From Fervidobacterium sp. (GTDB lineage: Bacteria > Thermotogota > Thermotogae > Thermotogales > Fervidobacteriaceae): a stretch of DNA of 64,000 bases. The translations under genes and the position numbers were made by a program. The notes under the pieces are model-generated. The model had not been told where the DNA came from, searched no databases, and saw only the letters and a list, made by a program, of their open reading frames with translations. The DNA lies in the NCBI GenBank assembly GCA_026419195.1, contig JANZZV010000007.1, positions 29,078-93,077 of the forward strand, given 5' to 3'. Below are positions 21,132-26,124 of the stretch, in pieces; within the stretch, counting starts at the first letter, position 1; each line of letters opens with the position of its first letter.

Positions 21132-21983
21132 TTAAAGCAAATCACTTATGGCTTTTATAACTTCAAGATCTTTTGTTGTTGATGTCAAATAAAAACCATG
21201 AACATATTGTGATAATTTTTCGACAACTACCGCTGCTCTTGTCAAAGAGTAGTTTTTGATATCAACATCCGTCTTTTGCCTAAAATATTCTTTTGGAACA
21301 AATACACCAGGAACTTTTGAAAAATATTCAAGTTGTTGAAGTGATTCAAACACCATTATAGCAACATATATTTTTGTAGATTTATAAAGTTCCTCGTCGG
21401 CCTCAAGAAATTTTAAAATAGTTTCTTCACTAAAAACTGGTTGTGAGACAAAAAACTTACACCCATTTTCCATTTTCAACCTCATTCTTTCGATTGTTTG
21501 TTTGTAGTCTTTTTCAAAAGGACTGAATACCCCGCCAGAGTTGAATGAAAATTTCCCGTGTATCTTTACTCCTACAAGGTCTTCTCCTTTTTCGTTTAGT
21601 AACTTCGTTAATCGAAAAACATCGTAGATACTAAAATCTTCTATACTTGAGGAAAACGGATACGTACCAACACGTGGGTCATCTCCAGAAAGAATAAGCA
21701 AATTTCTAATTCCAAGCATATGAGAAGCTATCAAATCTCCTTCTATTCTTATCGCATTTCTCGTTGTCCTTGAAAAATGCATTAGTACCTCAAAACCGTT
21801 TTCTAACAACATGTGTGCTGGTGCTATTGGGGAAACTCTGGTGCTTCCCATCGGTAAATCTGTTACGGCAATTACTTGTGCCCCACTTTCGTGTGCCTTA
21901 GTACAGAATTCCATATACTTTTGAATATCTGTACCTCTTGGTGGTAGAGTTTCCAATATAAATCGATTTTCAAAAAATTCCAT
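21132..21983 (-). CDS. metF: Methylenetetrahydrofolate reductase-like protein (MetF)
   Basis: A 283-residue TIM-barrel protein of the 5,10-methylenetetrahydrofolate reductase family. It shows ETLPPRGTDIQKYM at the start, AVTDLPMGSTRVSP, LILSGDDPRVGTYP and FFVSQPVFSEETI, all typical of MetF flavoenzymes that supply methyl groups for methionine. AGGTG lies six bases upstream of ATG. Some clostridial-type homologues act with a partner (MetV) instead of NADH; no such partner is next to it here. Confidence 0.88.
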   Translation of the reverse strand: MEFFENRFILETLPPRGTDIQKYMEFCTKAHESGAQVIAVTDLPMGSTRVSPIAPAHMLLENGFEVLMHFSRTTRNAIRIEGDLIASHMLGIRNLLILSGDDPRVGTYPFSSSIEDFSIYDVFRLTKLLNEKGEDLVGVKIHGKFSFNSGGVFSPFEKDYKQTIERMRLKMENGCKFFVSQPVFSEETILKFLEADEELYKSTKIYVAIMVFESLQQLEYFSKVPGVFVPKEYFRQKTDVDIKNYSLTRAAVVVEKLSQYVHGFYLTSTTKDLEVIKAISDLL

Positions 21984-22453: not shown

Positions 22454-23317
22454 TTAACCAAGATTTTTCAGACCATTGTTTCTATAAGCAGTATGCACTT
22501 GGCTGTAATTTCCTTTCCTGAGATTTTCAATTAGATACTTTTTTAGTAGTTCCTGATTTTTAGTTTTTCTAAATCCATCAATAAGTATATTCAAATCTCC
22601 TTTCAAATAGTACATCATCTCATAGTATATCTGAACTCTGTCTGTCGTAAATTTAAGTTTGTTTAAAAGTAATTCTTTAAGTTGTTCTTCGATAACACCC
22701 TTAGGTATTCTTGTACGAAGATAGTTATAGATGTGCAAACATGATGTTATCGAATTATCCTGTTTCGTTTTTGAAATATTTGTCTCAAAGTAATTCTCAA
22801 TATCCTCCAAAGCCTGGCTGGCGTAAAGAGCTACGTCCATGTGTGGATCTTTCAATAATGCTCTTAAATAGTTCATGTTCTTTTCTATGTCTATTCCTTT
22901 AGTGACGTAGGTAACTATAGTCTTTGTGAGTAATTTTTTTTCAGATGGTCTGCCTATCAAAAGTAAAGTTTTTACCGGTAAAGCGTTCATTATTTCATCT
23001 TCTATCTTAACGGTAATTTCAGGTGGTATAGGAACGTTAAAGAAGTCCTCAATTTCCTGAGTTTTTGTCGGTATCAGCAAGAGCCAAGATAAAGGATACG
23101 AAAGAATGAAAATGATACTCTCTGGGATATTTTTTCTTGTTAAATAGTAAATAAAGGCTGATAAAAGGCATACCACAAAGTTTGGAATCCTTAGTCCCTG
23201 TAGGAACATCATAACAGTATTTATAATTATCAGAGCTGCGTTTAAGATGTCAACGAATATGTAAACAAAACTTTTCTTATCCTCCATAATGGATCTTTTA
23301 GCATGTTGATATTTCAT
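22454..23317 (-). CDS. pelE: PelE-like membrane protein of Pel polysaccharide export
   Basis: This 287-residue protein has two or three N-terminal membrane helices (about 17-95) and then a helical region (about 130-287) with repeated helix pairs such as LRALLKDPHMDVALYASQAL and LHIYNYLRTRIPKG, like the TPR part of PelE. Sequence alone would leave it unnamed; the call depends on its place directly after PelD and PelG-like genes, where PelE is expected. In known Pel systems PelE supports the PelD/PelF/PelG inner-membrane complex. It overlaps the end of pelD by 20 bases. Its length is near that of known PelE (about 330). Confidence 0.65.
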   Translation of the reverse strand: MKYQHAKRSIMEDKKSFVYIFVDILNAALIIINTVMMFLQGLRIPNFVVCLLSAFIYYLTRKNIPESIIFILSYPLSWLLLIPTKTQEIEDFFNVPIPPEITVKIEDEIMNALPVKTLLLIGRPSEKKLLTKTIVTYVTKGIDIEKNMNYLRALLKDPHMDVALYASQALEDIENYFETNISKTKQDNSITSCLHIYNYLRTRIPKGVIEEQLKELLLNKLKFTTDRVQIYYEMMYYLKGDLNILIDGFRKTKNQELLKKYLIENLRKGNYSQVHTAYRNNGLKNLG

Positions 23318-24539
23318 ACTTTTTAGTCAACCTCTCCAATACCTTCCTTTTTCCAAGTTCATCACACACGGGCAGTAAGGCCTTTGTTGTTACAAAATTA
23401 CCACTTTCTTCAGAATACAAAATATCTGAGCTTCTAAATTCTTTAACTATGTTTTCATGGTACACTCTCGGGTACTTAAAACAAATTTCTTTAAATTGTA
23501 TACCAAAGCGTTCTTTTCTCTTTTCAAAGATAGACTTCTTTTTTGTGTAATACTCTGCCTCCCAAGTACCATCTGGCTTTCTGTACTTTTCAACAAGCAA
23601 TGCTTCTTGTTCGCTTATTATTTTCATGTTGGCATGAAACCAAGATGCAATGGCTCTTATGTATTGCACAAGTATTTCTGAAAAATTCTCAGGTTGAATA
23701 TCCTCAACAACAAGAACACCTGATAAATCACCTTGTCTTCCAATCGCAACGCAGAACCAAGGTTCAAAAGAGTCAATTTCACTTTCCAATATGATTTCTG
23801 GAAGAGTACTATATCCTTTTTCGATGGCCTTTAAAATAACCTTAGATGTATCAACAGCCAACGAGTTTGGTAATTTACGAGTTCCGACACCGTTGACAAA
23901 TCGTAAGAAGTTTTTTTCTACACGATAGAGTTGAAGATTCGTAAGTTGAAAAAAGTCGGCAACTATTTCAACAAATCTTGTTAATATCTCATCTAAGTCA
24001 AGTACTTCAAGTTCTTTTAGACGTTCAAGTAGATTTATCAATCCTTCTCCTTCGAAAAAAACCCTTAACCGCAATTGATTAACAACTGATTGCAAATTAC
24101 TTAGGCTCTCTATTAAGTTGTGATTCTCAAGTTCTAACTTTTCATTTTCGTTTTTGATGGTTTTAATTTTTCTATTTAGGATTTCTCCTACTATTCCAAG
24201 CGCAAGTCCTACTGTTATTGTATAAATCGATAGTACGTTGGCGTCCAAGCCTAATTCTTTATTTCTGTAGAAGTAGGTAATTATGATTTGGAAAAGTGAT
24301 ACTGAAAAAAGGAAAGGTAACAGGCCGTATCTTGCCGACCAGATAAAAATGAAAGTCATGATAAGAATAGTTGACGTTATTGGTTCAATTACAGAAAATA
24401 TTTCAAGTATGATGATTATAAGAAATACAATCAGAAGTTCTACTATCTGCACACCGATGTGCTTTTTTACATTTGTAAAGGAAAACTTCATATAATTAAA
24501 AATAATTGAGAGTCTATCGAACAATTTGTTTGTTCTCAT
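23298..24539 (-). CDS. pelD: PelD-like c-di-GMP receptor of Pel polysaccharide export
   Basis: This 413-residue protein has four membrane helices (about 28-120), a coiled coil, a GAF-like domain (about 175-290) and a C-terminal degenerate GGDEF domain. In the last, RSSD (residues 369-372) is followed by five residues and then ESGNF where active diguanylate cyclases have GGDEF. The spacing is exactly that of the inhibitory c-di-GMP site (RxxD-x5-GGDEF), so it should bind but not make c-di-GMP, as PelD of Pseudomonas does. ATG 24539 is used; TTG 24545 is possible. It overlaps pelG by 26 bases and pelE by 20, so the three genes form one unit. Confidence 0.8.
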   Translation of the reverse strand: MRTNKLFDRLSIIFNYMKFSFTNVKKHIGVQIVELLIVFLIIIILEIFSVIEPITSTILIMTFIFIWSARYGLLPFLFSVSLFQIIITYFYRNKELGLDANVLSIYTITVGLALGIVGEILNRKIKTIKNENEKLELENHNLIESLSNLQSVVNQLRLRVFFEGEGLINLLERLKELEVLDLDEILTRFVEIVADFFQLTNLQLYRVEKNFLRFVNGVGTRKLPNSLAVDTSKVILKAIEKGYSTLPEIILESEIDSFEPWFCVAIGRQGDLSGVLVVEDIQPENFSEILVQYIRAIASWFHANMKIISEQEALLVEKYRKPDGTWEAEYYTKKKSIFEKRKERFGIQFKEICFKYPRVYHENIVKEFRSSDILYSEESGNFVTTKALLPVCDELGKRKVLERLTKKYEISTC

Positions 24540-25920
24540 GAACAATTAACTCCCTTCGCGCAATCAGAAGCTTACTTCTTGTAAACTCAAATCTTATAAG
24601 ATCTGAGTAAATTTTTCTGAAAGAAAGGAAAGCATAGATCGTTGAAAAACAAAAGCCGATTAGGAACCCGAGTCCAGGATAAATCCTTATAGTTAATATG
24701 GAAGTAATAATATTAATCGAGAAAGCCATTATCGCTCCTTTCATGGGTATATCGGGCAAATCAAAATAATGTGCTATGAGTGAGATATATAAAAATATAC
24801 CATTTAGAGCGGCACCAACGATACCAAATCTAAGAGTCTTTAATCCATATTCATCAAGTAATAATAAGTTAGCTAGTTTATCTGAAAGAATTAATCCAAC
24901 AAGCATAAATGAAAATTGAATCGATAGGACAGATTTTGTTGTTGAATGTAAAACATCATCAAGACCTGATTTAGCAAGTCGTATGAATTTGAATGTTCTG
25001 TTTTCTTCGATTGATCTGTAAAATAGTCTGTAGTGATTGTAAAAATCAGTTTCTAAGATCAGTACAAAAAGTGAGAGAGTTGGAATAATGAACAGGTAAG
25101 AAATAAACATCGGAATATCGTATTGTGGAGCGAAGACAAAACCTTTTGAAATTGAATATTTGAAATACGCCCACGCTATAAAATCATCAACCCAAGCTGC
25201 CAAATATGTGAAAATCCCCGCTATTGTTTGTATTTTATACTTTTTTATTGCTTCAATAAATAAATCGGTTCCTGATCTATGTTCATTCTTAGTGTATAGA
25301 TGACTCTTTATAACAGTCTGTAATAACACCATGATCGTCATTAGACCCAAGTTGAAACCAAAGTAAGCATAGTATTCTCCAAAGGTTTTAAAGAGAATTA
25401 ACGTAAATATAAGACTAATTGAACCTCCGATGAGGAAAGTGCTGACAACTGGAAAAAATTTTCTGATGGACGATATGAAAACTATCTGCACCCATATTAC
25501 GGTTAATACTGTTAGAGAATAAGAGAAAAGTCCTATCTTGACAACATCAAAAATGCGATTCGTTGTGAAGAAAATAACCAAAAAAACAGCTGAAGACAAA
25601 AGAGCATAGTTTACACTAGATATATAGAGTTGATATATCTTTTGAAAATCTTTTTTATATATCAGATCTGAAAGATAACGTGTTACGGAAGTTGAAACAC
25701 TACCAAATAATATGGTGGAGAATATAAATGTGTATATTATGCCGGAAATAAGAAACGGAATTTTTTCTTGTGGAATAAGCAATTGTATTAGAAATACCGT
25801 GATTGAAGATATAATCCACGGGCCAGCTGAAATGTTAGCCGAATAAAAAAATGCAAATATATCCGAAAAAAAGGAATTTCTTCTCAGTAATTTATTAAGT
25901 TCGAAACCTATACCAGCCAC
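24514..25920 (-). CDS. pelG: PelG-like polysaccharide export membrane protein
   Basis: A 468-residue protein with about 12 membrane helices, starting MAGIGFELNKLLRRNSFFSD, which is the characteristic PelG beginning. FYSANISAGPWIISS near residue 26 and YLAAWVDDFIAWAYF in the middle also match. PelG is a flippase-like protein of the polysaccharide transporter superfamily that moves Pel polymer across the inner membrane with PelD, PelE and the glycosyltransferase PelF. The start is GTG 25920 with a weak GGTGAT site. No pelF, pelA, pelB or pelC lies nearby, so the operon is incomplete at this locus. Confidence 0.87.
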   Translation of the reverse strand: MAGIGFELNKLLRRNSFFSDIFAFFYSANISAGPWIISSITVFLIQLLIPQEKIPFLISGIIYTFIFSTILFGSVSTSVTRYLSDLIYKKDFQKIYQLYISSVNYALLSSAVFLVIFFTTNRIFDVVKIGLFSYSLTVLTVIWVQIVFISSIRKFFPVVSTFLIGGSISLIFTLILFKTFGEYYAYFGFNLGLMTIMVLLQTVIKSHLYTKNEHRSGTDLFIEAIKKYKIQTIAGIFTYLAAWVDDFIAWAYFKYSISKGFVFAPQYDIPMFISYLFIIPTLSLFVLILETDFYNHYRLFYRSIEENRTFKFIRLAKSGLDDVLHSTTKSVLSIQFSFMLVGLILSDKLANLLLLDEYGLKTLRFGIVGAALNGIFLYISLIAHYFDLPDIPMKGAIMAFSINIITSILTIRIYPGLGFLIGFCFSTIYAFLSFRKIYSDLIRFEFTRSKLLIARRELIVHENKQIVR

Positions 25921-25984: not shown

Positions 25985-25993
25985 ATTATAACA
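25985..25993 (-). promoter_or_regulatory. Extended -10 promoter for pelGDE
   Basis: The minus strand reads TGTTATAAT, an extended -10, ending about 65 bases before the pelG start. It lies just downstream of the terminator hairpin described next, so pelG can be transcribed independently of that hairpin. Confidence 0.6.
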
Positions 25994-26004: not shown

Positions 26005-26038
26005 AAAAACAAAAAATCCCCCGGACGTTTTCCGGGGG
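26005..26038 (-). terminator. Terminator upstream of pelG
   Basis: An 8-bp stem CCCCCGGA/TCCGGGGG (26018-26025 with 26031-26038) is followed on the minus strand by ATTTTTTGTTTTT, an excellent U-tract. On the plus strand there is no U-tract. No gene on this strand lies upstream of it before the divergent rnfB-like gene. Confidence 0.85.
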
Positions 26039-26089
26039 TACTTGAAAAAGTTTCTCAACTCTTCCAAGGGGGGATAGGGGGGTCGCTGC
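26011..26089 (-). ncRNA. Candidate small RNA or attenuated pel leader
   Basis: A strong minus-strand promoter should start an RNA near 26089 that ends at the hairpin, about 75-80 bases. It begins with two runs of six C (26077-26082 and 26068-26073). Either run could pair with the GGGGG arm of the terminator and prevent it from forming. This fits either a free small RNA or an attenuator in front of pelGDE. There is no open frame of note inside it. Confidence 0.4.
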
Positions 26090-26095
26090 AGTACA

Positions 26096-26124
26096 TTTAT
26101 ACATGTAATTATGTAAATTTTCAA
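26096..26124 (-). promoter_or_regulatory. Strong promoter reading toward pelG
   Basis: On the minus strand TTGAAA (26119-26124) and TATAAA (26096-26101) are exactly 17 bases apart. It drives the C-rich RNA that ends at the hairpin upstream of pelG. Confidence 0.75.

Follow-up and report, generated by a model that had tools for sequence, protein, structure and literature searches.

Predicted Gram-positive-type Pel genes divided between unlinked loci in Fervidobacterium, a toga-bearing thermophile

The pel gene sets closest to the one analyzed here are pelABCDEFG of Pseudomonas aeruginosa, pelDEADAFG of Bacillus cereus ATCC 10987 (PMC7112168, PMC13254593), and a cluster on plasmid p1 of Cetobacterium somerae, which is also a diderm and whose cluster is without PelB and PelC. 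A Pel set free of PelB and PelC was defined in PMC7112168. Thermotogae were named among the carriers of pel operons in 2020 (PMC7112194), and because the passages found in that paper report the same system in the same phylum, the novelty of the present findings is modest; the original prediction, which implied that Pel in the Thermotogota is surprising, claimed more on this point than the literature allows. The division of the genes in Fervidobacterium and the problem posed by its toga are not described in the main-text passages found in that source. As far as our searches show, the new elements are this split and its site of relocation, the joint loss of its two parts, and the position that TM1410-like and DUF2194 proteins take in the system.

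The window, meaning the whole 64-kb stretch of DNA that was analyzed (C7:29078-93077 of a 2.06-Mb genome in 118 contigs), holds pelG, pelD, and pelE as its sole pel genes (Table 1), three open reading frames of which each overlaps the next, as originally described. Taken together with the rest of the genome, they very probably encode, to judge from sequences and structure models, one half of a complete Gram-positive-type Pel synthase, for which pelF and a PelADA-type deacetylase (ADA) would supply the unlinked half and a GH191-type endo-galactosaminidase a third part. Fervidobacterium and B. cereus ATCC 10987 have in common PelD, PelE, a separate ADA, PelF, and PelG, together with the RxxD I-site of PelD, the lack of a recognized PelB or PelC, and a stand-alone PelAH-like hydrolase, but in Fervidobacterium the order and partner genes differ and the set is split into two unlinked loci of a diderm thermophile. 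The single operon of Gram-positive-type Pel is thus not found in the genus, and this arrangement is an organizational feature, not a functional requirement. The Cetobacterium somerae cluster likewise contains GH114, PelD, DUF2194, a gene in the PelE position, PelF, and PelG, but forms a single cluster, has a longer PelG (703 aa), and reaches only 20-38% identity in alignments of PelD, PelF, and the deacetylase. With P. aeruginosa the common elements are the PelD fold and I-site, PelE, PelF, and PelG, whereas PelC is absent from the Fervidobacterium pel loci and the deacetylase and hydrolase are separate genes in place of a fused PelA.

Table 1. Coordinates of the pel genes and adjoining features; positions are those of the window unless a contig (C11, same genome) is given
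Feature	Position	Strand	Description
metF-like gene	21132..21983	-	immediately downstream of pelGDE
pelE	22454..23317	-	287 aa; two membrane helices and a helical (TPR/HEAT-like) repeat domain
pelD	23298..24545	-	415 aa; mechanical TTG start at 24545, ATG 6 bases in
pelG	24514..25920	-	468 aa, GTG start; polytopic membrane exporter, PelG family
TATAAT, candidate extended -10 of pelG transcript	25985..25990	-	downstream of the small RNA terminator
small RNA gene	26007..26089	-	5' tail GCAGCGACCCCCCUAUCCCCCC, 12-bp hairpin, terminator hairpin (26018-26038)
candidate small-RNA promoter	26096..26124	-	TTGAAA (26124-26119), 17-base spacer, TATAAA (26101-26096); compared in 8 congeners
pelF	C11:58152 onward		DUF3492 (PF11997), E 2e-77, and GT4 domain
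predicted DUF2194 deacetylase (PelADA-type, ADA)	C11		737 aa, E 1.8e-170; overlaps pelF by 4 bases
GH114-family hydrolase (GH114/GH191, PelAH-like)	C11:31084		303 aa

The 468-residue protein is PelG, as had been proposed, matching Pfam PF16933 (E 2e-102) over residues 1-443 (443 residues) and sharing 53-67% identity with the PelG of congeners and of the sister genus. Divergence puts PelD and PelE beyond recognition by direct BLAST or Pfam, neither having a significant match of its own in Pfam or NCBIfam, and their identities were established through profile, structure, and neighborhood. The AlphaFold model of PelD (pLDDT 83) consists of N-terminal membrane helices, a long coiled coil, a GAF domain, and a short degenerate GGDEF domain. 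A direct phmmer search against PDB sequences returned nothing for PelD and a profile search gave weak matches only, mostly to coiled coils; the assignment was settled by a Foldseek fold search, in which all five best PDB matches were P. aeruginosa PelD (E 6.6e-9 to 1.4e-7), the c-di-GMP complex 4dn0 among them. The I-site is kept as R371-S-S-D374, and in an alignment of 19 sequences that took in the Azospirillum, Caballeronia, Pseudoalteromonas, and Cetobacterium pel-cluster PelD, the only invariant columns were L158, R371, and D374. In B. cereus PelD, residues R363, D366, and R395 are required for biofilm formation (PMC7112168), and R405 of the present protein, 31 residues past D374 and invariant in the Thermotogota set, is a candidate for the third residue of that set, the spacing being about right. 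The pelD product is thus a predicted membrane-anchored c-di-GMP receptor, and the presence of c-di-GMP in the cell is plausible given the 20 GGDEF domains encoded in the genome.

The identification of PelE also held. A Thermotogota PelE profile aligned with proteobacterial PelE at E 6.8e-8 (hhalign), and in most members of the window's genus and of the sister genus, as in a Pseudothermotoga, pelE comes directly after pelD and the two genes share about 20 bases. The PelE model, in which a pair of membrane helices precedes helical repeats, gave generic helical repeats only and no significant match among PDB folds, and the assignment therefore rests on the profile match and the gene position.

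The absence of pelF and pelA noted in the original prediction is correct for the window but not for the genome, where family searches, the means of gene finding used genome-wide, located PelF (GT4), a deacetylase, and a hydrolase on a single other contig. The missing glycosyltransferase, which was expected to be elsewhere or replaced, is elsewhere and has not been replaced. The glutamates of its EX7E motif (E367/E375), together with R287 and K292, are invariant in 12/12 aligned sequences spanning Thermotogota, a fusobacterium, and Proteobacteria. The adjoining DUF2194 protein retains invariant DDF and HGYNH motifs and a late histidine (H620), and its sequence places it as a predicted deacetylase like PelADA of B. 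cereus; its closest solved structure (PDB 9zau, E 2e-32) is probably a PelADA-type protein, the entry title being generic. The hydrolase gene lies 27 kb from pelF, and its product matches structures of TM1410 (E 1.7e-36), the Thermotoga maritima enzyme with which GH191 was defined. GH191 is related to PelAH and is reported to be active on galactosamine polymers (PMC12054363); that the hydrolase belongs to the Pel pathway rests on its neighborhood in other genera. On the same contig, 7 kb upstream of pelF (L063:2261-7594), a run of genes encodes three membrane-anchored proteins that are related to one another, one being 912 aa long, together with a CsgG-like protein whose match (E 0.0019) falls short of the cut-off. 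No other Pfam matches were obtained there, and these proteins could be envelope or export components.

By analogy with characterized Pel systems, the inner-membrane synthase would consist of PelD, PelE, PelF, and PelG. Diguanylate cyclases would raise c-di-GMP, which would bind the RxxD I-site of PelD, and PelD and PelE would then switch on the cytoplasmic PelF to polymerize a UDP-activated amino sugar (GalNAc in other Pel systems). PelG would move the chain across the inner membrane, outside of which the deacetylase would render the polymer cationic and the hydrolase would trim it.

Gene order across the Thermotogota places the isolation of pelG-pelD-pelE in context. Wherever seen in the window's genus, FKBP-pelF-ADA occupies one site and pelG-pelD-pelE another, 0.85-1.0 Mb apart in the complete genomes (G003, G005, and G007), and in the sister genus FKBP-pelF-ADA-pelG-pelD-pelE forms one run in G013, an order that G009 fits with breaks at contig ends. 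The sister-genus run ends with a gene (c12) that also stands at the end of the pelF-ADA locus in the window's genus, another gene (c34) lying in between in the relatives inspected. Elsewhere the order is F-G-D-E in a Pseudothermotoga-like genome (G028), ADA-G-D-E with pelF convergent and the hydrolase often present in family f3, and D-E-x-F-G-ADA, usually followed by the hydrolase, in Thermosipho-like genomes; in several genera a hydrolase of the GH191/TM1410 kind adjoins the deacetylase gene. Two f3 genomes (L088 and L095) carry two adjacent sets of pelG-pelD-pelE and pelF with one deacetylase and one hydrolase, which suggests tandem duplication. The neighborhood survey that had been suggested thus finds G-D-E usually linked to F or ADA, so that its isolation here is probably derived. 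In trees of PelG, PelF, and ADA, the window's genus, the sister genus, and G028 (where present) form one fully supported clade, outside of which the Thermosipho type falls. The branching order within that clade is not settled by these trees, and the direction favored, from joined to split, comes from neighborhood parsimony.

Patterns of presence and loss appear to tie the two loci together. PelG was found above the cut-off in 30 and PelF in 31 of 61 Thermotogota genomes, and PelF is present in 30/30 of the genomes with PelG. One congener (G001) is without both pelF-ADA and pelGDE. At its FKBP site a deletion scar remains (L149:3687-4119) in which PelF residues 1-56 are fused to ADA residues 645-727. 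At its other site metF comes immediately after the small RNA described below, which identifies this position as the vacant pelGDE site. The loss of two unlinked loci from the same genome, on top of their co-occurrence, argues for one function, and the loci probably act as one system. A different outcome is seen in G008, where a 424-aa RRXRR/HNH (IscB-like) gene (L079:7742-9016) takes the place of pelD and of portions of pelG and pelE, and pelF-ADA is intact. The set is not indivisible, as two Pseudothermotoga-like genomes (G028 and G038) have PelF and PelG with no match to the DUF2194 deacetylase anywhere in either genome; these possibly make Pel that is not deacetylated or is deacetylated by a different enzyme.

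These observations bear on whether the genes in the window belong to a Pel system at all. PelG is part of a wider flippase-like world, and with PelD and PelE lacking Pfam matches when taken alone, the 468-residue protein could be read as an ordinary Wzx/MATE-type flippase for some other polysaccharide, surrounded by unrelated sensors. Such a reading is scarcely credible, being refuted by the strength of the PF16933 match and by the co-occurrence of PelF, to which the conserved G-D-E linkage across the Thermotogota and the fold and I-site of PelD can be added. Grouping of the protein with Wzx flippases, named in the original prediction as the result that would count against it, did not occur, and no flippase family is among the PelG family matches listed at E up to 1 in Pfam and NCBIfam. 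It is also highly improbable that pelGDE is what is left, in decay, of a Pel operon that was lost, with pelF-ADA as an independent relic. Decay does take place within the genus, as the pelF-ADA scar of G001 and the IscB-like replacement in G008 attest, but all six genes in the window's genome are full length with their catalytic residues kept, and both loci are likewise intact in other members of the genus, at least in G003, G005, G006, and G007.

It is unlikely that a Pel-like machine here builds some other polymer, such as a toga-associated or cell-wall polymer of amino sugars that is retained in the cell envelope. Such a product would fit with the cell having an outer toga while neither PelB nor PelC is recognized in any Thermotogota pel locus. 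For PelC, none was found in the window or in the 34 Thermotogota stretches searched as pel loci, in agreement with the original prediction and with a working control in which three proteobacterial PelC find one another; the PelB queries have no match in the genome and miss even one another. Against a different polymer stands the TM1410-kind GH191 gene, placed beside the deacetylase gene in several genera and belonging to a family linked to galactosamine polymers (PMC12054363). We put forward only tentatively that a complete c-di-GMP-controlled Pel machine of monoderm composition operates in a toga-bearing diderm thermophile without PelB and PelC, so that the polymer either stays between the inner membrane and the toga or exits via an unrecognized toga exporter. 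How a toga-bearing cell exports a cationic polysaccharide without PelB and PelC is the question that this system poses. The findings further imply that the two halves of a Pel system can come apart in the genome and yet be retained, and lost, as a unit, and they connect the TM1410/GH191 structure, as well as the DUF2194 family, with a Pel pathway in the Thermotogota.

Between pelG and a divergent FeS gene lies a C-rich, unannotated small RNA gene. A terminator-like hairpin about 100 bases upstream of pelG had raised the suspicion that the pelG leader contains a pel attenuator or a riboswitch for c-di-GMP, an idea that was rejected: a search of the window with Rfam 15 at gathering thresholds gave no match at the small RNA, and the hairpin belongs to a separate gene. 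Its presence in pel-less genomes, including G001, and upstream of a dnaB-like gene in nine genomes indicates that it is neither a pel leader nor pel-specific. The pelG TATAAT occurs at the same place in all pel-carrying congeners inspected, mostly preceded by TG, and the pel-less G001 has TGATACAAT at that position, before metF. The first 35 bases of the small RNA (GCAGCGACCCCCCTATCCCCCCTTGGAAGAGTTGA) are present as a single copy with at most one mismatch in 8/9 genomes of the genus and occur nowhere else in the survey. A covariance model recovers the RNA at E <1e-7 in almost all genomes of the family, the exceptions being G002 (none) and G009 (weak match only), and six family f2 genomes give matches at E ~1e-4 to 1e-5. 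Pairing is kept in 98.5% of cells and six pairs change on both sides, compared with at most two in slid controls, in an alignment that was fitted to the model and is thereby biased towards it. The small RNA clearly qualifies as a candidate new family. Pairing with G-rich ribosome-binding sites has been proposed for other C-rich small RNAs, and our guess is that the unpaired C-runs of this one pair with such sites.
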